Shown here piece after piece: positions 1,123 through 52,899 of a stretch of 64,000 nucleotides of DNA. Under the pieces are notes generated by a model. That model saw nothing but the letters and a program-made list of their open reading frames with translations. It ran no database searches and had not been told where the DNA came from. Source of the DNA: Methylocystis rosea SV97 (GTDB taxonomy: Bacteria; Pseudomonadota; Alphaproteobacteria; Rhizobiales; Beijerinckiaceae); NCBI RefSeq assembly GCF_000372845.1, contig NZ_KB889964.1, forward strand, positions 186,001-250,000. Reading direction: 5' to 3'. The position numbers were made by a program, and so were the translations under genes. Numbering within the stretch: position 1 is the stretch's first letter; each line of letters opens with the position of its first letter.

Positions 1123-1482
1123 GTGGCCTTCTACAGCAAGCGCGGCGCATGCGAGCAGTACATCAAGGAAGGCAAGGGCGCGATCAAATGGACGCGACTG
1201 TCAGGTCGCTCCTTCGCCGCCAACGCTGTGCGCCTTCAGCTTCACGCGCTGGCCTACAATCTCGGCAACTTCCTGCGCACGCTGGCGATGCCTTAGCCGA
1301 TAAAGCACTGGTCTATGACCACGCTGCGCGAAAAGCTGATCAAGATCGGCGCGAAGGTCGTCGGTCACGCGCGCTATGTCTCGTTCCAGATGGCGGAGGT
1401 GGCCATTCCTCGAAATCTCTTCGCCGACATTTTGCGGCTCATCGCAGGGTTGCGACCGCCGCCGGTGACGTCGACAGCGTAA
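1123..1482 (+). pseudogene. C-terminal remnant of an IS1380-family transposase
   Basis: The frame starting GTG GCC TTC TAC at 1123 reads AFYSKRGACEQYIKEGKGA, WTRLSGRSFAANAVRLQLHA, LAYNLGNFLRTLAMP, then TAG at 1294-1296. It continues in the same frame with KHWSMTTLREKLIKIGAKVV and MAEVAIPRNLFADILRLIAG to TAA at 1480-1482. This is the familiar C-terminal third of IS1380-type transposases. The N-terminal two thirds are absent and one premature stop is present, so it is a dead fragment. It lies between the broken replication-relaxation gene and a metal-binding protein gene. Confidence 0.75.
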
Positions 1483-1959
1483 GGCGTTCAACGTTCACGC
1501 GTTCGCTGCAAACCACGGGAGACATGCGCCTCGATGACAGGAAAATCCGAACTTTCAGCGCTGGGCGCGCCGTTATCATCAAATTGGGGCTCGCTGGCGT
1601 CTGCGTCGAAGATTCAGCCTTGCCAGCAGCCGTCGAAGGCGGCAATCTCTGGCTCAAGACCGCCGGTATCCGGTGAATGTCGGCTAATTAGCATAACAGC
1701 CGATCACGACGTTTTGGCCCACGGCCCCGCAACTGGGGAGGCATGAGGAGCAACATTGATATTTGCACCATCTTTTGAGTTTTTGAGAAACGTCTCGGCT
1801 TCTGCGCTTATGCAATGAAGCCGGATAATGCGTCAATTTGCAGCGGTCCGCGAGCCTATTCAAATGGGACATCGAAAAGTAGATCAATGAAGCTACAACT
1901 GGTTGCCTCGCGTTTTGGGCCAGGGGCCAGCTTTTGAATTAAAGCAAGGGAGATGTGAA
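1483..1959. other. Non-coding gap after the IS1380 remnant
   Basis: No reading frame here has convincing start signals or recognisable protein motifs. The left part may still be the terminal non-coding end of the IS1380 remnant; I could not identify an inverted repeat. The right end contains the ribosome-binding site of the following SmbP-like gene. Confidence 0.4.
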
Positions 1960-2313
1960 ATGCTCAATCGCAACCTTATGGCTGGTCTCATTAGTCTCGG
2001 CCTTATGATGGTGCCGGGCTTATCTCTTGCACAAAGTTCGCATATCTCCGAAGCTACTAAGGAACTCGAAGAGGGCATTGCCGAAGGTAGGAAGGGGATG
2101 GCGTCGTCATTCGCAGACCACCTCCAAAGCGCTCTCGAGCACGCAGAAGCGGCGAACAAGGAAAAGTTCAACCATCACAAAGTAGCCGCCATCAACGAAT
2201 TAAAAAAGGCGATGAGCCTTGCGAGGGGAACCGGACACGCCGGCCGACTCTCAAAAGGTGTAACCCATGCCGTGATTGCTCGACATGAATTGCAGGCAGC
2301 AGAAAAAGATTAG
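1960..2313 (+). CDS. SmbP-like small periplasmic metal-binding protein
   Basis: The 117-residue product starts at an ATG preceded by AAGGGAGA, a good ribosome-binding site; a longer in-frame start at 1903 lacks one. Residues 1-24 form a signal peptide (LISLGLMMVPGLSLA) cleaved before QSSHIS. The mature part is helical with regularly spaced His residues in H-x-x-x-A and A-x-x-H patterns (ADHLQSALEHAEAAN, HHKVAAINELKKAM, ARHELQAAE). This resembles SmbP from Nitrosomonas, a periplasmic Cu/metal-binding four-helix protein. It has fewer His than canonical SmbP, so metal affinity is uncertain. Two hairpins follow the stop. A copper-buffering role would suit a methanotroph, but that is inference. 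Confidence 0.7.
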   Translation: MLNRNLMAGLISLGLMMVPGLSLAQSSHISEATKELEEGIAEGRKGMASSFADHLQSALEHAEAANKEKFNHHKVAAINELKKAMSLARGTGHAGRLSKGVTHAVIARHELQAAEKD

Positions 2314-2326
2314 ACTAGGCCTCTGC

Positions 2327-2374
2327 CTCTGCACAGTCTGCAGAGCCGGCTATAATGGAGGCTGGTCAGCCTCC
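2327..2374 (+). terminator. Two consecutive hairpins downstream of the SmbP-like gene
   Basis: CTCTGCA at 2327-2333 pairs with TGCAGAG at 2339-2345 (5-nt loop). GGAGGCTG at 2357-2364 pairs with CAGCCTCC at 2367-2374 (2-nt loop). Neither is followed by a clear T run, so termination is plausible from position only. Confidence 0.35.
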
Positions 2375-2409
2375 TGCCGCTACCCCGGCCGCCGCCATTA
2401 AGATCAGCG

Positions 2410-2556
2410 ATGATCTCGCTTCCCGGAGGCCCCACAGCGGTGGCCACCGATAAGCAGACGGGGATTAAATACGCTCGCTACCTCGAACGGGTGATTGAAT
2501 GCGAAGATGCATTCATGTCCGGCGTCAGCGCCTTTGAGACAAATCGGGCGGGTTGA
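2410..2556 (+). CDS. Small hypothetical protein (48 aa)
   Basis: An ATG at 2410 opens a 48-codon frame beginning MISLPGGPTAVATDKQ and ending SAFETNRAG. The amino-acid composition reads like real coding sequence rather than a shadow frame: acidic and basic residues alternate and it has a helical stretch (YARYLERVIECEDAF). The ribosome-binding site is weak. It may equally be the tail of a larger gene cut by the adjacent IS3 fragment, since it lies just upstream of transposase debris. I recognise no family. Confidence 0.3.
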   Translation: MISLPGGPTAVATDKQTGIKYARYLERVIECEDAFMSGVSAFETNRAG

Positions 2557-2600
2557 GGAAAGGAGGATTTCTGGCTCATCGTAACCGTCAAGGAGTGGAG

Positions 2601-2672
2601 ATGAGCCAGAAATCCGGAACCCCGAAATTGTCCGCCGAGCAGGTCGTGAAGGACATTCGCCGAGCGACGCGC
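2601..2672 (+). pseudogene. N-terminal stub of an IS3-family OrfA transposase
   Basis: ATG at 2601, preceded by AAGGAGTGGAG, opens MSQKSGTPKLSAEQVV and KDIRRATR, which is how rhizobial IS3-family OrfA proteins begin before their helix-turn-helix. Homology stops at about 2672, where the sequence joins an IstB fragment read from the other strand. Only about 24 residues remain. Confidence 0.6.
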
Positions 2673-2851
2673 AGCCTGGCCGTCAGCCGCTTGTCGCGTC
2701 GAAGAGACGCTTCTCGATCAAGCAGCAGCGCGAGCCAGTCGCTGCGGTCGATCCCTTTCGCCTCATCTGTCTCTGCGAGTTCGGCGAAAGCCTTGGCCAT
2801 TCCGTAAAGGCCGAGGACGTGAAGCTGGTCGAGGGTGGGATGTTTAAGCAA
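2673..2851 (-). pseudogene. istB: N-terminal fragment of IS21-family IstB ATPase
   Basis: From a TTG at 2851 the frame reads LLKHPTLDQLHVLGLYGMAK, AFAELAETDEAKGI and WLALLLDREASLRRDKRLTA, the N-terminal helical domain of the IS21 helper protein IstB. It is cut after about 60 residues at the junction with the IS3 OrfA stub, so the AAA+ core with Walker A and B is missing. It follows the istA stop by 11 bp, the normal IS21 gene order. Confidence 0.75.
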
Positions 2852-2862
2852 GTCGCTGTCTC

Positions 2863-3157
2863 CTAATGGTAGTAGCGCGGGCCGCGGATATTGGGGTGAA
2901 GGATCGGAGCCGTGTCCGCGGCGCGCTTTGGCGCCAGCTTCCGATCGAGCTTGTTGTCGAGGATGGATTTGACCGAGCCGTAGGTCTTCGCGCCGATCTC
3001 TATGGCGCGCTCCGCCGCGGCTTCGACGCGTTCGGACCCATAGGGGCCGATGAGGCGAACAATGCCCAGACAGGCGCGATAGCCCTGTTCGGGATGAGGC
3101 CGCGCCTCCAGAATTTGCTCGCAGAGCGCCGCCGTCGCCGGGCCGATCTGGCGTCAC
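2863..3157 (-). pseudogene. istA: C-terminal fragment of IS21-family IstA transposase
   Basis: The minus-strand frame ending at TAG 2863-2865 reads EQILEARPHPEQGYRACLGI, VRLIGPYGSERVEAAAERAI and NIRGPRYYH. This is the typical C-terminus of IS21 IstA. The catalytic DDE core lies upstream in the family and is absent. Together with the istB stub it shows that an IS21 element was truncated on both sides. Confidence 0.75.
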
Positions 3158-3682
3158 AATGAACGCGCCCGATTGAACCACCAAGCCACGGACGAAGCCA
3201 TCGGCAGCAACGATGGTTTGGCTCATCAGTCTGCCCCTGAGAGCACCGCGCTCGTCGCCGCGCTAAATCTTGTGTCGGAAACAGCGGAGGCGATCAAAGC
3301 ATTCGATGAGCAGGCAGCTCGAGCGCTAATGCGCGCTCCTCGGCGCGACTACGAATTGGCCTGTCGCTCTAACGGGCGACGATCCTTTCAAACGCAAAAC
3401 TCCTGCCCGGTCAGAAATGGCCGGGCTTTTTCGTGCCGCACGCGCCCGGAGCCGCACGCGCATCCATGACTACGACTTCCGCTGCTCGTTTCGTTCCTTT
3501 GACCTTTCTGGCCACCGCTACAGGCCGCGGACGTCATAGAACCGGTTTGCAAAACCTCGTCGACGCGGGCTTCAAAGGGACATGAGCTTCGTCGGCGTTA
3601 GTGCGTTCATGTGTCGATAGAGGATACGCCTTACCCTGCCGAAGCGTTCGAGTTTCATAGGTTAGAACAGATCTGACAGCGT
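3158..3682. other. Gap with a possible degraded coiled-coil ORF
   Basis: A plus-strand frame at 3173-3469 contains ALNLVSETAEAIKAFDEQAA, which looks like genuine helical coding sequence, but its end is low-quality and Arg/Pro-rich. It may be the remnant of an unidentified gene. I see nothing recognisable in 3470-3682. Confidence 0.3.
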
Positions 3683-27943: not shown

Positions 27944-28849
27944 TTGAAGGGCCAAATTTCTCATCTTTCCCGGCTCGAGGCGGAGTCCATCCATATTCTT
28001 CGTGAAGCCGTAGCCGAAGCCGAACGACCGGTGATGCTGTTTTCAGCGGGTAAGGATTCAACCGTGCTCGCGCATCTCGCGCTCCGCGCCTTTTATCCAG
28101 CCAAGCCGCCATTCCCGCTGCTGCATATCGACTCGACCTGGGAGTTCCGAGCCCTCATCGACTTTCGCGATTCATTCGCGCTAACGCATGGCTTCACGCT
28201 GATTGCCCATGCGAACGAAGACGGGCGCGCCGCCGGCATAAACCCGTTTGATTATGGCGACCGATATACGCTGCTCATGCGCACCGAGCCGCTGAAAGCG
28301 GCGCTTGATCACGGAAAATACGATGTGATTTTCGGCGGCGCGCGGCGCGACGAAGAGCGGTCGCGGGCAAAGGAACGGATCGTTTCAGTGCGCAGCGACA
28401 AGCACGTCTGGGATCCGCGTCAGCAGCGGCCCGAGTTCTGGCGTCAGTTCAATCTGCGCCTCGGCAAAGGGCAATCGGCCCGGGTGTTTCCGCTGTCAAA
28501 CTGGACCGAGGCGGATTTGTGGGATTACGTGCTGATGCACAAGATCGAACTGGCGCCGCTCTATTTCGCGTCGCCGCGGCCAGTCGTCGAGAGAAAGGGT
28601 TCGTTCGTCGTCGTCGACGACGAAAGCAGGATGCGATTCCAGCCCGGCGAGCAGGTCGTGATGAAGACAGTCCGCTTTCGGACGCTCGGTTGCTGGCCGG
28701 TCACCGGCGCGATCGTGTCCGAAGCGGCCGATATCGAAACCGTCGTCGAGGAAACATTGCGTTCGAAATGCTCTGAGCGGCAGGGGCGCATCAGCGACGG
28801 CGAGGACGGCGGTTCGCTCGAGCAAAAGAAGCGTGAAGGCTATTTCTAG
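27944..28849 (+). CDS. cysD: CysD, sulfate adenylyltransferase subunit 2 (without adjacent cysN)
   Basis: ATP-sulfurylase small subunit of the PP-loop (adenine nucleotide alpha hydrolase) family: LFSAGKDSTVLAHLALRAFY contains the SxGKDS loop, and IFGGARRDEERSRAKER and PLSNWTEADLWDYV are CysD signatures. A TTG start at 27944 follows GAGAGGAAAGG and gives 301 residues, the normal length; GTG 27920 is the alternative. CysD needs the GTPase CysN, but the next gene is a bioA relic and no cysN lies anywhere in the window. Either cysN is elsewhere or the operon was cut. It sits 92 bp after ccr. Confidence 0.92.
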   Translation: MKGQISHLSRLEAESIHILREAVAEAERPVMLFSAGKDSTVLAHLALRAFYPAKPPFPLLHIDSTWEFRALIDFRDSFALTHGFTLIAHANEDGRAAGINPFDYGDRYTLLMRTEPLKAALDHGKYDVIFGGARRDEERSRAKERIVSVRSDKHVWDPRQQRPEFWRQFNLRLGKGQSARVFPLSNWTEADLWDYVLMHKIELAPLYFASPRPVVERKGSFVVVDDESRMRFQPGEQVVMKTVRFRTLGCWPVTGAIVSEAADIETVVEETLRSKCSERQGRISDGEDGGSLEQKKREGYF

Positions 28850-46690: not shown

Positions 46691-47589
46691 TTAGTTTAAG
46701 AGCGGCATTTGGACCAGCGGCTGAGCGCCCGGCGGAGCTGGCTGGGGTTGCGCAGCCGGGCGCTCGGGGAACAGAACCGCCGGGGCTGGCGGCCGATACC
46801 CCAACGACGAATGTGGCCGCACTTCATTGTAATGACGCCGCCAGCTTTCGATGATGATCCGCGCTTCCTTGAGCGAGTAGAAGATCTCGCCGTTGAGCAG
46901 TTCGTCACGAAGCTTCGAGTTGAAGCTCTCGCAATAGCCATTCTCCCATGGACTGCCTGGCTCGATGTAAGCGGTCCTGGCGCCGACAGCGGTTATCCAA
47001 TCCTGCACGGCCTTGGCGATGAACTCGGGGCCATTGTCTGATCGCACATGGCCAGGAACGCCGCGCAGAATGAACAGATCGGACAGCAGGTCGATGACGT
47101 CCGTCGAGTTAAGCTTGCGATTGATCCGGATGGCCAGGCATTCACGCGTAAACTCATCGATGATGTTCAACATGCGATATTTGCGTCCGTCATGTGTTCG
47201 GTCTTCGACGAAGTCGTAGGACCAAACATGGTTCGGATGTTCCGGCCGTACCGAATGCATGATCCGTCGTTCAGCCACAGCCGCTTTCGCCTGGGCTGCT
47301 TTGCTGGGACCTTCAGCCCCTCCCGCCGCCAGATCCGCTCGACGCGCTTGAGGTTCACCGCCCAGCCGGCGTCGTGCAGCATCGCCGCGATGCGCCGATA
47401 GCCATATCGCCCATATTGGAGGGCGAGCGCGATGATGTCGGCGGTCAGAGCCGCTTCGTCATCTGGCGTCCTGGCGATCTTACGTTGCGTCGAACGATGT
47501 TGGCCGAGCACGCGGCAGGCGAAGCGTTCGGACACGCCGAACGCCTCCCTTGCGCGCTCAACGCAGGCGCGACGGCGGGCGGGGCTTAA
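46691..47589 (-). pseudogene. IS3-family OrfB (DDE transposase) with a one-base frameshift
   Basis: The first frame (LLSPARRRACVERAREAFGV, YGRYGYRRIAAMLHDAGWAV, RRKRLWLNDGSCIR) and the second (RPEHPNHVWSYDFVEDRTHD, VRSDNGPEFIAKAVQDWITA, YIEPGSPWENGYCESFNSKL) together give a normal OrfB with the DDE core (D in YDF, D in SDNGPEF, E in NGYCESF). They are joined at about 47260, where one base is missing after SCIR. OrfB is normally made from OrfA by -1 frameshifting, here near AAACTTTTAAG at the orfA stop. Confidence 0.85.
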
Positions 47590-47864
47590 AAGTTTCCCGA
47601 CGCAGCCTCCTTCAGGATCAGCTTCTCAAGCGTCAGATCAGACACCGCCTTACGAAGCCGGGCGTTCTCCTGCTCGAGATCCTTCAGCCGCTTGACCTGG
47701 TCGCTCTTCAGCCCGCCATATTCCTGGCGCCAGCGGTAATACGTCACTTCCGTAACGCCTATCGATCGAATGGCTTCCGCAACCGACTGCCCTTGCGTCG
47801 TCAGCACGTCGACCTGACGAAGCTTCGCGACAATCTCCTCGGGCTTGTGCCGTTTCCTGCCCAT
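47586..47864 (-). CDS. IS3-family OrfA (helix-turn-helix subunit)
   Basis: 92 residues: GRKRHKPEEIVAKLRQVDVL then SIGVTEVTYYRWRQEYGGLK is the IS3 OrfA helix-turn-helix, followed by a leucine zipper (LKDLEQENARLRKAVSDLTL). It is intact and sits inside the IS defined by the inverted repeats, with the OrfB frame beginning at its end. Confidence 0.92.
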   Translation of the reverse strand: MGRKRHKPEEIVAKLRQVDVLTTQGQSVAEAIRSIGVTEVTYYRWRQEYGGLKSDQVKRLKDLEQENARLRKAVSDLTLEKLILKEAASGNF

Positions 47865-48064
47865 CTCAAATCCTCCTCATAGGCTCAAAAGCCATACTTC
47901 ACGGAGGATCACTTTTCAGGGGGCAGACCACACTCTTCCGCGCTCATCGACGGCTTGTTTTGTGTCGGTCGGCTGCAACAGCCAAACCACATCGGATCCG
48001 TCGCGGCGCATATTGCCATCGGATTCACGGGGCAGCGTCACAGGCAATCCGGCGTGGTCCGGTT

Positions 48065-48158
48065 GACCGGCCACAGGCAAGATAGCGTGCTTCCCGTCGT
48101 CCTTGGTCTGCACCAGTTCTCATCCGCTTGCGCGGAGCTCCTTGCTCAAAAGACGATC
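48065..48158 (+). repeat. IS110-element end, second copy at 13572-13668
   Basis: This segment just beyond the IS110 transposase relic begins GACCGGCCACAGGCAAGATA and is nearly the same as the isolated fragment at 13.6 kb. The shared end marks one boundary region of the IS110 element. Confidence 0.75.
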
Positions 48159-48201
48159 GCGTTTTGCGTGATCGTCTGCAATATGTTTGCGCGTCGCGGC
48201 G

Positions 48202-49290
48202 TCATGCGTGTGCGCCGAGAAGCTTGCGGTTTTTGACGGCCGCCCGCGCGGCGACGTCGGCTTCGCGCGCCGCGGCGTCGCCGACATAGACGGCGCCGTC
48301 GCGCCACATCGCATGCATGACGACCGCCATTTTGCGCGCGACAGCGACGGTCGCCTTGCGATGACAGCCGCGTTTCGCCAGCGTCAATCCCCATGATTTA
48401 AGCTTGTCCTTGCCCTTGAAGCGCGTCAGCATGACGCCCGCCGCTTCGAAAAGCGCGCGTCGCATCTGGGGATCGCCGGCCTTGCTGATGCGGTCCTGAA
48501 CGTCGATCGACGCGCCCGACTGACGCCGTTTCGACGTCAAGCCAAAATAGGCGGCGACGTCACGCGAGCGCCGGAATCGCGACGGATCGTCGATCGCCGT
48601 CATGAAGCTCAACGCCGTCACTGGACCGACGCCCGGGATCGCCATGAAGCGCCGGCAGAGTTCGCTGCGGGAGACGAACTTCACGACCAGATCGTGCAGC
48701 TTACAATACTGCTTCCATAACGCCGCGCGCGCCATCAGCAATCAGCATCGTTTCCATCAACTCGCTGGTCAGCGGATCATTGGCGACTGACTCGCGCACG
48801 GCCTGCTCAAACTCGCCTCGCGACGTTCCCTTCAATCGTACGCCGAAGGCTTTGAGCGAGTGGCGGATCGTGTTCTCGATGTCGAGGAATTTTGCGTTTG
48901 AGATTGCGCCGCTGCGTCAGCAAAAGCCGCATGCGATAGCAAGGTTCGCTCTTGATGAAGGCGGCCTTGAACCAGCCGGTGCGCACAATATGCGCAATGC
49001 CAAGCGCGTCTGTCACATCCGTTTTGTTGCGCTGCGCCGACATCGCCGCGTGCACGTGGCGCGTTTCTAGACACACCGCCGGCAGTCCGAGCGCCGTGAG
49101 TTCCGGATGCAGTCAGGGCGACAAGGCGCCGGCTTCATGACCGACGCGCCGCAGCCGCGACAAAAAGGGTTTTAGCGCCTTCATGATCGCGCCCGCATCG
49201 GTCGCAACCGACGTTTGAAGATGCACCGCGCCCTTGTCGTCGACGACGCAAACCGCCGTCTCATCGATCGACACGTAGAGCGTGCACCTC
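48202..49290 (-). pseudogene. IS110-family transposase with a TGA and frameshifts
   Basis: Read leftward: LYVSIDETAVCVVDDKGAVH (DEDD N-terminal domain start), KPFLSRLRRVGHEAGALSP then TGA (replacing the Trp expected before LHPELTALGLPAVCLETRHV), RNKTDVTDALGIAHIVRTGW, then a frameshift near 48900. A second block follows (LMARAALWKQYCKLHDLVVK) with MAIPGVGPVTALSFMTAIDD and YFGLTSKRRQSGASID, the IS110 C-terminal domain with its catalytic Ser region. The start codon is also degraded. At least three lesions make it inactive. Confidence 0.85.
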
Positions 49291-49840
49291 GTTGGGATGG
49301 CGGCCTGTCCCGACTACGGCGGGCCCGCCTGACTGGGCATCGTCCCGGGACTTTCTTCCCTATATCTTCCTTTACTAATTGCTCGAAGGCGCGCGTTGTC
49401 GTTCGATGGCGCAGACGATTGGCCTCGTTGTGTCCGTTAGCCTCCGGCGTCGAACGTAGCTCTGAAGCGCCATGCACTCCTCCGTGCTCTGCGGCGTCGC
49501 AAGAGCGCCGCGGCACATGTTTGAACGCTTGCATGGATGTCGAAAATTGGGTTTCAATTGTCCATTTATCGACTGATCCAGATAGCTCAACACTCGTATA
49601 TAATGCATGGTATTTAAGCCTAGAAGCACAAAAGCCTGAGCCGACACGGCAAGGCATCGAAGGGAATACGGTCATGCTTCGTCATCCTATCCTCTTTGTG
49701 GTCCATGCATGGAATTACGTCTTCAATCATAAAGTTAGCCCGGTTAGAAGCATTCCGGATATTGCTGTTCGGCATTATATTTGGGGATTATCCCATTGAC
49801 GCAAGTATGAGGCTATGGCATAGTTTCCGTCATTGGAGCT
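49291..49840. other. Gap between IS110 relic and IS1595 transposase
   Basis: Contains the 5' end of the IS110 element and then an AT-richer stretch (about 49540-49790) without recognised gene. The IS1595 left terminal repeat should lie here; I could not match it to a right end. Confidence 0.35.
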
Positions 49841-49846
49841 ATGCAG

Positions 49847-50773
49847 ATGACGACTCGTAAGCGCACCCGCCCATCGAAAGCCGGACAACGCGAAAGCAGC
49901 GTCCAAGCGTTTTCAGTCCGCGATTTTTTCGCGACCTTCCCGAATGACGACGCCTGCCTTATCCGGGTTATGGAAGTCCGTTACGGCCTTCGCCACGTCT
50001 GCGGCAAATGCGGCGTCGAGAGCACCTTTCACAAGATCACAGGCCGCCGCGCCTTCGCCTGCGCCGCTTGTGGCGATCATGTCTATCCGTGCGCGGGGAC
50101 GATCTTTCAAGACAGCCGGACGCCGCTGCAAACGTGGTTTTACGCGATCTACCTCTTTATCGCGACGCGTCACGGCGTGAGCGGCAAGGAACTGCAACGG
50201 ACGCTCGGCGTCACCTATAAGACGGCGTGGCGCATTGGCCAGCAAATCCGCGACCTCATGACGAAGGCCGATGGCTTCGAAATGCTCAAGGGCCACGTCG
50301 AGCTGGACGAAGCCTATGTGGGCGGCAAGCGTTCCGGCAAGCGCGATCGCGGCGCGGAAGGCAAGACGATTGTCATGGGCCTCAAGGAACGTGGCGGCAA
50401 GATCGCGACGCAAGTCATTCCGAACGTGAAGCAAGAGACGCTGCGCGGCGTCGTTCTTGAGAATGTCGAGAAGGGCGCGACGGTTTCGACCGATGAGCTT
50501 TACAGCTATGGCTTACTGACCGGCGACGGTTACAAGCATGGCGCGGTGAAGCACGGCGCGAAGGAATGGGCTTATTACGACTATCGCCACGACGCGACGC
50601 ATCACACGAACAATGTCGAGAGCTTTTGGAAACTGTTTAAGAAGTCGGTCGCTTCAACGCATATTCATATCAGCGCGAAGCACATGGACCGCTACCTCGG
50701 AGAGTTTTCTTTCCGCTCGAACCATCGCCAGATGCGGAACGCGATGTTCGATCTTCTGATAGCGGCGCTTTGA
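49847..50773 (+). CDS. IS1595-family (ISXO2-like) transposase
   Basis: 308 residues. An N-terminal zinc ribbon (CGKCGVESTFHK ... CAACGDHVYPCAGTIF) is followed by a helix-turn-helix (GVSGKELQRTLGVTYKTAWR) and the DDE-type ISXO2 domain: VELDEAYVGGKRSGKR (first Asp), VSTDELYSYGL (second Asp) and HHTNNVESFWKLFKKSVAST (H/N-N-x-E, third acidic). It appears intact. ATG 49847 is better spaced from GGAG than ATG 49841. A small antisense gene overlaps its 3' end, and the defence-like cassette follows. Confidence 0.92.
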   Translation: MTTRKRTRPSKAGQRESSVQAFSVRDFFATFPNDDACLIRVMEVRYGLRHVCGKCGVESTFHKITGRRAFACAACGDHVYPCAGTIFQDSRTPLQTWFYAIYLFIATRHGVSGKELQRTLGVTYKTAWRIGQQIRDLMTKADGFEMLKGHVELDEAYVGGKRSGKRDRGAEGKTIVMGLKERGGKIATQVIPNVKQETLRGVVLENVEKGATVSTDELYSYGLLTGDGYKHGAVKHGAKEWAYYDYRHDATHHTNNVESFWKLFKKSVASTHIHISAKHMDRYLGEFSFRSNHRQMRNAMFDLLIAAL

Positions 50774-50894
50774 TTAGCGCCGCCGTCAACGAATCGAACG
50801 CAGCGCGGTCAATTGGGCCGACGCCGCGAGATTCTTCCTGCTGGACGAAATCAGCCATTTTATTCTGCTTAACCGCCTCGCACAAAGATACCAT
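50670..50894 (-). CDS. Small protein antisense to the IS1595 transposase tail
   Basis: From ATG 50894 the 74-residue product reads VSLCEAVKQNKMADFVQQEE, SRGVGPIDRAAFDSLTAALI and ends SEDRTSRSASGDGSSGKK plus a short tail. I recall similar short proteins ending DRTSRSxSGDGSxGK beside IS1595-type transposases, so this may be a passenger gene. It overlaps the transposase 3' end by 104 bp in antisense. Function unknown; the call is tentative. Confidence 0.45.
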   Translation of the reverse strand: MVSLCEAVKQNKMADFVQQEESRGVGPIDRAAFDSLTAALIKAPLSEDRTSRSASGDGSSGKKTLRGSGPCASR

Positions 50895-51011
50895 CCGAAC
50901 CTCCGGCAATGATGATACACCATCGCGAGTTAGATTGATGTAATGCGGATAGCGACACATACGGGCTGCGGTGATCCGTGGTAATGCATAGTGCAACACA
51001 AAGGCCGTGGA

Positions 51012-51212
51012 ATGGGCGAAAAAGACTACACTCTTCAGGTCCGGATGAGCGAATCTGAGAAGAAAGCATTTGAGATGGCCGCTAGCTCAGCGGGGATTTC
51101 GATCTCCGCTTGGGTGCGGGATCGGCTACGCAGAGTTGCAAGAGACGAGCTACAATCATCCGGCCTCAAGGTTCCATTCATCGAAGAAATGAAGGCAAAG
51201 GATGGCGACTGA
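51012..51212 (+). CDS. Small ribbon-helix-helix-like protein (66 aa)
   Basis: The sequence GEKDYTLQVRMSESEKKAFE then MAASSAGISISAWVRDRLRR has the beta-strand/helix/helix pattern of CopG/MetJ or MobC-type DNA-binding proteins (L-x-V-R-M-S, then S-x-W-V-R-x-R-L). Its stop lies 11 bp inside the start of the DUF262 gene, so the two are translationally coupled. It likely dimerises and represses its own operon or guides or inhibits the partner nuclease; the last point is inference. Base composition is lower in GC than the metabolic genes. Confidence 0.65.
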   Translation: MGEKDYTLQVRMSESEKKAFEMAASSAGISISAWVRDRLRRVARDELQSSGLKVPFIEEMKAKDGD

Positions 51213-52899
51213 TGCTTCGGTCCGAGGATTTGATTTCAGCTCCATGGGCATCGGCTCTGTGTTGAAGCTGCATCGCCTAAAAGTGCCGCCATATCAACGG
51301 GAATACGCCTGGGATACGGAAGAGGTCCAGCAGCTTTTTGCTGACTTCTCAAACGCAAAATTCGAGAATAAAGACTATTTTTTAGGAACAATTGTCACAA
51401 TAAGCAATCCATCAAGTAAGGTATTGGAGATTGTCGATGGTCAGCAGCGCCTGACTACAACTGCAATTTTGATATCAGCTATACGTAACTATTTATCAAC
51501 TATAACGTCCGCGAATATTATTGTCGAGTCTATAAATAACGAGTTTCTGTCAACAATTGATAGGGTTGCTGGCCAAAGGGTCCCTAGGCTAGCGTTGAAT
51601 ATTGATGACAATGCATTTTTTGAGTGTCTTATAGATCATGGCTCTCAGAGAGAAAAGTTACCTCCTACACGAGAGTCGCATCGTCTTCTGATTAATGCAT
51701 CGAATATTGCTAAGCTGTGGGTTGAAAATGCAGCTAAGCAGTTTGCTGTGGCAGATGTGCCCTCGCGGTTTAACGATTGGATTGAGTTTATTGAGACCAA
51801 CGCCACTGTCGTTCTGTTGCAGGCTCAGAATGCATCACAAGCTTTCAAAATGTTTGAAACTCTTAATGATCGGGGAATGAAAACAAACCAAGCCGATCTG
51901 GTAAAGAGCTATCTATTTGGGCAGTCGGATAAGCGAATAGCTGAAGCAATCGCAAAGTGGTCGTCGGTTCGGGACAATTTGGAAGAAATGAGTGACGATG
52001 ATCGACTCATTAATTTCCTCAGACACGTTTTTATTGCTACTAGGAATTTTGTTCGCGCCGAGGATATTTACGAAGAAACTCAGAAAACCGTTCGCGGCGA
52101 CGCAAACGCGGCAACGTTCTTATCTGAACTTGAACGCCTGTCGCGAGTTTATGTCGCAACTTATAGAACCGACTCTGAATTTTGGACAGGACACCCAGCA
52201 GCGACCACAAAGGCACTGCGGATAATCAATAAGTTTGACATAAAGCCCGTCCGCCCGCTCGTGCTCGCGCTTGCTCTTGAGTTTCCTCAGAACGAATTGG
52301 CGGAAGCTTTCCGTCTCGTGCTGTCTATTACCGTGAGGCTACTAATCGCCTCTGCCACGCGCAGCGGGACAAACGAGCAGACTTTCGCAGCTGCGGCTCT
52401 CTCTGTTTTCAAGAAAGAGACGAATACGGTTGCAAAGCTACGCACAATCCTTGGCAGAGTAATCGTAAGCGATAGCGATTTTAGAGACACATTTGCAGCT
52501 GCTAGATCGTCAAAGGCTGACTATGCTCGATATTATCTTCGCTCCATCGAGGCAGCGTATGCGAAAGACAGCGAGCCGTGGTTTGTTCTAAACGATGACG
52601 AAGCTTCCATCACTTTGGAGCATGTCCTTCCGAAAAATAGGATGGCGGGGACATGGCCGACATTTAGCGAAGAGGATGCTGAAAGGTTCGGAAAGCGCCT
52701 AGGCAATCTTTGCCTTTTGCAGAGAACTCCAAATTCAACGATTGATAATGATAGCTTTGATGCAAAAAAACCTGCGTTACGAGTGTCGCCATACCACTTT
52801 ACAAACCACATATCGGATTTTGACACTTGGTCATCGGAAAAAATAGAAGAAAGGCAAGCGCACATGGCCGAATGGGCGATATTGGCTTGGCCAATTTAA
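51202..52899 (+). CDS. DUF262/DUF1524 (GmrSD-like) probable restriction/defence nuclease
   Basis: 565 residues. N-terminal DUF262 (ParB/sulfiredoxin-like NTPase) domain: LHRLKVPPYQREYAWDTEEV and EIVDGQQRLTTTAILISAI with the DGQQR motif (residues 79-83). C-terminal DUF1524 HNH-type nuclease: SITLEHVLPKNRMAG (His474), LGNLCLLQRTPNSTIDNDSF. This is the GmrSD/type IV modification-dependent restriction architecture. The gene is clearly AT-richer than its surroundings, with different codon use, and lies between an IS1595 transposase and chromosomal genes: a transferred cassette. The ribbon-helix-helix gene overlaps its start. The target (modified phage DNA, for example) is not predictable from sequence. 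Confidence 0.85.
   Translation: MATDASVRGFDFSSMGIGSVLKLHRLKVPPYQREYAWDTEEVQQLFADFSNAKFENKDYFLGTIVTISNPSSKVLEIVDGQQRLTTTAILISAIRNYLSTITSANIIVESINNEFLSTIDRVAGQRVPRLALNIDDNAFFECLIDHGSQREKLPPTRESHRLLINASNIAKLWVENAAKQFAVADVPSRFNDWIEFIETNATVVLLQAQNASQAFKMFETLNDRGMKTNQADLVKSYLFGQSDKRIAEAIAKWSSVRDNLEEMSDDDRLINFLRHVFIATRNFVRAEDIYEETQKTVRGDANAATFLSELERLSRVYVATYRTDSEFWTGHPAATTKALRIINKFDIKPVRPLVLALALEFPQNELAEAFRLVLSITVRLLIASATRSGTNEQTFAAAALSVFKKETNTVAKLRTILGRVIVSDSDFRDTFAAARSSKADYARYYLRSIEAAYAKDSEPWFVLNDDEASITLEHVLPKNRMAGTWPTFSEEDAERFGKRLGNLCLLQRTPNSTIDNDSFDAKKPALRVSPYHFTNHISDFDTWSSEKIEERQAHMAEWAILAWPI

Follow-up and report, generated by a model that had tools for sequence, protein, structure and literature searches.

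The present analysis concerns positions 51,012 to 52,899 of a 64,000-nucleotide stretch of the Methylocystis rosea SV97 genome (contig NZ_KB889964.1, positions 186,001 to 250,000; hereafter the window), where a gene for a small ribbon-helix-helix (RHH) protein overlaps a gene for a DUF262/DUF1524 nuclease. It is likely that these two genes form a self-regulated antiphage restriction module consisting of a HEC-06-type nuclease and an RHH autorepressor. The basis for this module is the genes and their domains, the predicted folds, an exclusive pairing, a correlated divergence of the two proteins and operator-like boxes. The nuclease is of a known type, and what accompanies it is a conserved RHH partner which is probably its autorepressor and which was not found described. 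Coordinates are positions in the window, and L and G numbers designate the loci and genomes analyzed. The two genes and their overlap are as follows.

51012..51212, plus strand: 66-amino-acid RHH protein, a probable autorepressor, with an ATG start (open reading frame, profile, alignment, model and pairing)
51202..52899, plus strand: 565-amino-acid DUF262/DUF1524 nuclease of the GmrSD/HEC-06 type (domain and HEC-06 profiles, fold)
51202..51212, plus strand: 11-base-pair (bp) overlap of the end of the RHH gene with the start of the nuclease gene (open reading frame coordinates)

An earlier note on this DNA had reported two genes overlapping by 11 bp, the second of which was assigned to a DUF262/DUF1524 antiphage family from its DGQQR, HNH-like EHVLPKN and GNL motifs, and each of these points was borne out. 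The nuclease contains in one chain the GmrSD_N domain (PF03235, expect value (E) 3e-34, 119.3 bits) and the GmrSD_C domain (PF07510, E 7e-22, 78.2 bits), both over the cut-off. Its best profile is HEC-06 (PADLOC PDLC04157), which matches over its full length at residues 7-564 with E 2.3e-157. HEC-06 profiles match all 31 members of alignment A4, which contains 31 nuclease sequences including that of the window and leaves out L032 as well as L047 and L071, whose frames are broken. The three motifs are conserved in these 31 aligned sequences.

51436..51450, plus strand: codons of DGQQR, residues 79-83, with D79 to R83 invariant
52618..52623, plus strand: Glu473-His474 of the His-Me (HNH) motif, in LEHVLPKN, with H474 invariant and E473 at least 90% conserved
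52702..52734, plus strand: G501-N502-L to N511 of the His-Me (HNH) motif, with G501, N502 and N511 invariant

The predicted model of the nuclease matches the fold of DndI, SspE and BrxU, and DndI is the closest solved structure by both sequence and fold.

The small protein had been called RHH-like in the same note, which proposed searches with PF03235, PF07510 and RHH_1. The first two profiles matched the nuclease, but RHH_1 had no match to the 66-amino-acid protein at E 0.1 and matched only one of the 14 RHH family members at E 0.01. The protein instead matched the NikA-like model PF21983 with 29.7 bits (cut-off 27), and this model matched 13 of the 14 members at E 0.01; NikA is an RHH protein. 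Its predicted model superposes on solved RHH proteins and has the strand and two helices of the RHH fold, so the RHH-like assignment itself stands. Several antitoxins (KacTA, AtaR and TacA) are among the closest structures. A sequence search of the PDB with the RHH profile gave a sole weak match, located inside a DsbA-like protein, which was judged to be chance. Two positions stand out in the alignment of the 14 members.

51042..51044, plus strand: codon of Arg11, in the strand expected to contact DNA, invariant in 14 of 14 aligned members
51174..51179, plus strand: Pro55-Phe56, C-terminal and beyond the RHH fold, at least 90% conserved in the 14 members

Judged by RHH proteins in general, Arg11 presumably contacts DNA, and Pro55-Phe56 may be a docking point. 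A different RHH-like family was also encountered at L193-L198 in three genomes of the order, all from a single genus; its match to the RHH model is confined to roughly the first 35 positions, and a genome has up to three copies.

The pairing of the two genes was approached from both sides. Searches with the RHH family alone, in overlapping samples of genomes, found a match at E<=1e-6 in 4 of 397 genomes of the family (4-row model) and in 5 of 327 genomes of the order (14-row model). The order matches were full-length in the genome of the window (103 bits) and in G1133 (89 bits), and the remaining three were N-terminal only, at 31-34 bits. At the level of the class (385 genomes) and of the phylum (398 genomes), the genome of the window was the sole one with a match. 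A full-length RHH relative lies directly before the nuclease in all five distinct cellular genomes concerned (G000, G005, G157, G193 and G1133), and in G005 the nuclease behind it is split. When the nuclease was searched first, an RHH gene adjoined it in 10 of 80 genome-contig loci (80 kept of 254 relatives), in 1 of 80 viral loci (80 kept of 99) and in 4 of the 12 family genomes, out of 397, with a nuclease at E<=1e-30. In 13 of the 15 paired rows, the first aligned residue of the nuclease begins -23 to +14 bp from the RHH stop; the other two rows are L002 and L088, each with a split nuclease whose larger piece is at a greater distance. The RHH frame of L002 is apparently intact beside its split nuclease, and the C-terminal end of the L088 RHH departs from the family. 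Searches with three RHH family members in named plasmids and with two in named phages gave no match.

In addition, the distances among RHH proteins and among their nucleases are correlated (14 pairs, rho 0.50, reached in 0 of 5000 permutations). L088 was dropped from this test, as was L087, whose RHH protein has an unrelated N-terminal half. The earlier note had made its case depend on the co-occurrence of the small gene with the nuclease, and such co-occurrence was found, in the five genomes above and in 15 paired nuclease rows.

A tree of 93 nucleases was built by a quick method, with provisional supports, after leaving out duplicates (L008, L062, L102 and L181-L185) and nucleases below 290 bits; L192 is absent from it. 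All 15 paired rows fall within one node of 31 rows (support 89), and 14 of them fall in a starred node of 29 rows. Thus 15 of the 31 rows of this clade have an RHH partner, and the 62 rows outside it have none. The paired rows, many of which are metagenome bins and one of which is a viral contig, come from about six phyla by NCBI names (Pseudomonadota, Chloroflexota, Thermomicrobiota, Acidobacteriota, Actinomycetota and Planctomycetota). Because the same pairing recurs in such distant bacteria, it looks like a conserved control circuit and not a chance neighborhood. The presence or absence of RHH requires 11 changes on the tree, 8 of which are forced by starred branches, with a mean of 14.1 in shuffles and 7 of 500 shuffles as low. 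One gain of RHH followed by repeated losses fits this count, which cannot separate gain from loss. No remnant of RHH was detected by tblastn at E 0.05 before the nucleases of the RHH-less clade rows.

The DNA upstream of the RHH gene was read in 18 loci: the 15 paired loci, including the window, L101 and L192, and the viral loci L187-L189, with L087 dropped from the operator tests. Boxes of the form TGT...ACA recur in this set. Dyads with 7-bp arms show a peak at a 7-bp spacer (z 4.4), and at least 6 of 7 pairs are formed in 11 of the 18 loci, with 3.2 expected. In a test that used a larger number of shuffles for each locus, 9 of 18 RHH loci and 3 of 62 RHH-less controls had a long-spaced repeat pair at p<=0.05. 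A motif search in the 17 loci without the window returned TTGTCAGTACAT with a score of 152, and four shuffled sets gave 127-131. The outer half-boxes, as read off without a control, start 52-53 bp apart in 10 of the 18 loci (the window, L010, L012, L027, L034 weakly, L035, L046, L101, L188 and L189), 42 bp apart in L088 and 29-31 bp apart in L002, L022 and L192. These offsets are close to five, four and three turns of DNA. By eye, in a partial and small pattern, residue 9 of the RHH protein follows the type of box: Lys9 (L010, L012 and L088) occurs with GGG boxes and Gln9 (the window, L025, L027, L101, L188, L189 and L192) with CANTACA boxes, L022 and L187 being exceptions that have Gln9 yet other boxes.

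The half-box is TGCANTACA in L025, L027, L101 and L188, and two operator-like boxes related to it precede the RHH gene of the window.

50939..50959, no strand assigned: operator-like box 1, TGTAATGCGGATAGCGACACA, with half-box CGCATTACA at 50939-50947 (minus strand), one mismatch from TGCANTACA; the other half has more than one mismatch
50980..51000, no strand assigned: operator-like box 2, GGTAATGCATAGTGCAACACA, with half-boxes at 50980-50988 (minus strand) and 50992-51000 (plus strand), offset by 12 bp

The 12-bp offset of box 2 is that of L025, L027, L101 and L188. The window has three half-boxes with at most one mismatch to TGCANTACA, at -73, -32 and -20 from the RHH start codon. Comparable positions are -73, -61 and -19 in L188 (among others), -74, -62 and -21 in L101, -70, -58 and -17 in L027, and -29 and -17 in L025 (among others). 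The two boxes of the window are 41 bp apart. A same-strand pair of half-boxes 41-42 bp apart arose in 0 of 4000 shuffles, two or more half-box sites arose in 70 of 4000, and the 64 kb contain no other same-strand pair at a distance of 40-43 bp. In the 3.9-Mb genome the two-box consensus has no other place at 0-1 mismatch and six places at 2 mismatches, with 2 for the reversed control.

Since operator-like boxes common to the paired loci lie immediately before the RHH gene, the RHH protein is, on this comparison of sequences, most likely an autorepressor of its own promoter. The earlier note had proposed control of, or targeting by, the nuclease; the control half of that proposal is favored by the shared boxes, and no evidence was obtained for the targeting half. 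As a working mechanism, the RHH protein would dimerize and bind the two boxes of about 21 bp before its own start codon, and in this state would repress transcription of both genes, so that a risky nuclease is kept low. During infection, loss or titration of the RHH protein would raise the dose of nuclease. The DUF262 domain would then sense the state of the DNA and hydrolyze NTP, and the DUF1524 His-Me domain would nick or cut foreign, probably modified, DNA.

Several results weigh against an autorepressor of this kind. First, TGCANTACA was chosen after the upstream sequences, including that of the window, had been read, so the numbers derived from it are supportive and not blind. Secondly, taken by itself, the window does not reach significance in the generic tests (p 0.59 for the repeat pair and p 0.82 for the 21-bp dyad) or with the motif from the 17 other loci (p 0.52). 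A scan of 50774-51011 gave no sigma-70-like promoter, and at the operator the window showed nothing beyond chance in generic scans for promoters, terminators and repeats. What speaks for the operator of the window is the position and spacing of the TGCANTACA half-boxes, and not the generic tests. Third, RHH loci and controls are hardly told apart by the 21-bp dyad test on its own (2 of 18 as against 2 of 62), L026 has no boxes and L187 has no significant ones. Lastly, the nuclease frame is full-length in 13 of the 16 clade rows that lack RHH, which indicates that RHH is often dispensable.

This last count also bears on a toxin-antitoxin arrangement, in which the RHH protein would bind the nuclease and hold it inactive, with or without autorepression, until loss of RHH during infection freed it. 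In gene order, size and overlap the pair matches type II toxin-antitoxin operons, in that a small DNA-binding gene comes first, overlaps the effector and has its own operator, the operator by sequence only. The antitoxins among the closest RHH structures, the conserved Pro-Phe beyond the DNA-binding fold and the open RHH frame beside the split nuclease of L002 would suit such an arrangement. However, the RHH tail past the fold is only about 15 residues, and HEC-06 proteins are described as acting independently (PMC11411939). A type II effector would also not be expected to persist without its antitoxin, as it does in those 13 of 16 rows. A strict antitoxin role is therefore less likely than autorepression, and an added antitoxin role is possible, although it cannot be essential throughout the clade. 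Overall we consider the toxin-antitoxin arrangement unlikely, at about one chance in a handful.

RHH relatives on viral contigs suggest a further elaboration. When viral sequences were scanned with nothing but the RHH family, L187-L189 emerged as good relatives and L190 as a doubtful one, and a scan with L187 added L216 and L217. At L188 a remnant of the nuclease comes after the RHH gene (a 65-residue frame with 45 aligned model positions); neither the L187 and L189 records nor the 6-kb stretches read for L216 and L217 gave a nuclease match. Beside its RHH gene L187 has a gene for a portal protein, L189 has a RusA-like gene nearby and L188 has a weak virion-protein match. Both L216 and L217 are near relatives of L187, and the gene in the same place begins, by eye, like the L187 portal protein. 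L101, in contrast to these, is a viral contig with a complete RHH-nuclease pair (1281-3216); by eye, the gene before this pair resembles a LexA/cI-type repressor and the one behind it a YqaJ exonuclease. The five viral RHH relatives for which the DNA read contains no intact nuclease (L187, L188, L189, L216 and L217) are possibly counter-defence factors. A type IV-like nuclease under an antitoxin-style RHH switch, which phages would keep shut by means of lone RHH proteins binding the host boxes or the nuclease, is a speculative combination that we consider unlikely.

It is improbable that the nuclease senses phosphorothioate (PT) in the manner of DndI and SspE. DndI is its closest solved structure, and the P-x-Y-Q in the patch with which DndI senses PT (PMC11662687) has a counterpart in P29-P30-Y31-Q32, but Tyr31 is replaced by Asn in the paired homologues L010 and L012. 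The matches to the PAPS-reductase family (PF01507) in the genome are four CysD-like proteins and one CysH-like protein with no DndC-like gene, Ssp genes not having been searched by name. Since the proteins found are CysD-like and CysH-like, PT sensing in this host is unlikely. The presence of four CysD-like proteins in one genome is a separate observation; one of them lies in the window at 28028-28708.

Stable pairing and a DNA-binding fold could also mean that the RHH protein is a targeting subunit which brings the nuclease to particular DNA sites. We regard this as very improbable, as the likely RHH sites are in its own promoter, with no other genomic copy at 0-1 mismatch, and the nuclease is often encoded without RHH. 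Finally, the best Pfam match of the RHH protein is NikA-like, as a leftover NikA/MobC-type mobilization gene beside an unrelated nuclease would be, but such chance neighbors can be dismissed almost entirely given the pairing in 15 nuclease rows of about six phyla and in all five genomes where RHH was found, and the absence of a relaxase among the Pfam-scanned flanking genes.

Two further statements of the earlier note, on the base composition of the cassette and on the neighboring element, were borne out. The guanine plus cytosine content of the cassette had been described as below that of its neighbors and is 0.465 against 0.585 for the window, a value equally low in about 1 of 1,240 sampled stretches of the same length (fraction 0.0008). 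The drop is mainly in the nuclease gene (0.458) and less in the RHH gene (0.522). The adjoining IS1595 element was likewise recovered, as a neighbor outside the module.

49841..50773, plus strand: transposase open reading frame of the IS1595 family (PF12762 E 8e-40; NF033547 E 2e-57)

To the left of this gene lies a stretch rich in insertion sequences (IS), with an IS3 transposase and an IS110 transposase fragment at 46691-49799. Horizontal acquisition of the cassette, as the earlier note proposed, is plausible because of the low guanine plus cytosine content, the IS elements and the restriction of the nuclease to the 12 family genomes noted above. IS1595 as the carrier of the cassette gained no support: the genome has no complete second copy that would set its ends, only a match of about 280 bases at 68%, and no terminal repeats were found. 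A defence island around the cassette gained no support either. The Pfam-scanned flanking genes encode transposases and sulfate permease, cytochrome b561, PAS, polyketide-cyclase-like, fatty-acid hydroxylase, patatin and SDR proteins, and the PADLOC scan covered three proteins of the window. No helicase, methylase or ATPase, as in the Hma clusters from which HEC-06 was first identified, was matched among these flanking genes, the rest of the window not being fully annotated. The cassette DNA had no relative in the plasmid set searched.

These results matter for several reasons. GmrSD-type enzymes are mostly described as stand-alone, and the clade here appears to have a private RHH regulator with operator-like boxes. 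This raises a testable question, namely how a modification-dependent nuclease is kept safe and which trigger raises it during infection. The boxes provide a bench handle in the form of a short DNA fragment and a 66-residue protein. In addition, the lone viral RHH relatives suggest counter-defence aimed at regulation.

A pairing of RHH or CopG proteins with DUF262 or type IV restriction enzymes was not found described in the parts of the open-licence literature available, in agreement with the earlier note, which knew of no such described system. In a survey of GmrSD-homologue neighborhoods, HTH_19 is among the most enriched domains, and the words ribbon-helix and RHH are absent from its main text (PMC4619093). 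The closest known system is HEC-06, a GmrSD-like PADLOC candidate with demonstrated antiviral activity (PMC12988326), which is alike in its full-length profile match and differs in that an RHH partner and operator-like boxes are present here. Among the type IV enzymes BrxU and GmrSD, BrxU is absent from the PDB sequence matches to the nuclease at E 0.1 and sits with BREX (PMC10952713), and the substrate of the nuclease here is a predicted one. The PT-sensing DUF262/DUF1524 nucleases DndI and SspE are alike as the closest solved structures, but no DndC-like PT gene was found in this genome. BrxR/CapW and RptR are likewise DNA-binding regulators of defence loci; the gene for RptR comes first in its locus, and RptR represses the promoter of this gene by way of repeats located 31-58 bp upstream (PMC12255303), and BrxR-family genes also occur near type IV enzymes (37 of 210; PMC9122601). 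However, these are a WYL protein and an all-helical protein, respectively, whereas the protein here belongs to a separate RHH family and has another box. TgvAB is also a two-gene system with a DUF262/DUF1524 protein, but its partner TgvA is a second DUF262 protein and not a DNA-binding regulator (PMC11411939). The RHH antitoxins KacA, AtaR and TacA are alike in fold and size. Their systems share the gene order and a self-operator. They differ from the module described here in that its partner is a restriction-type nuclease and in that RHH is absent from 16 of the 31 rows of the clade.
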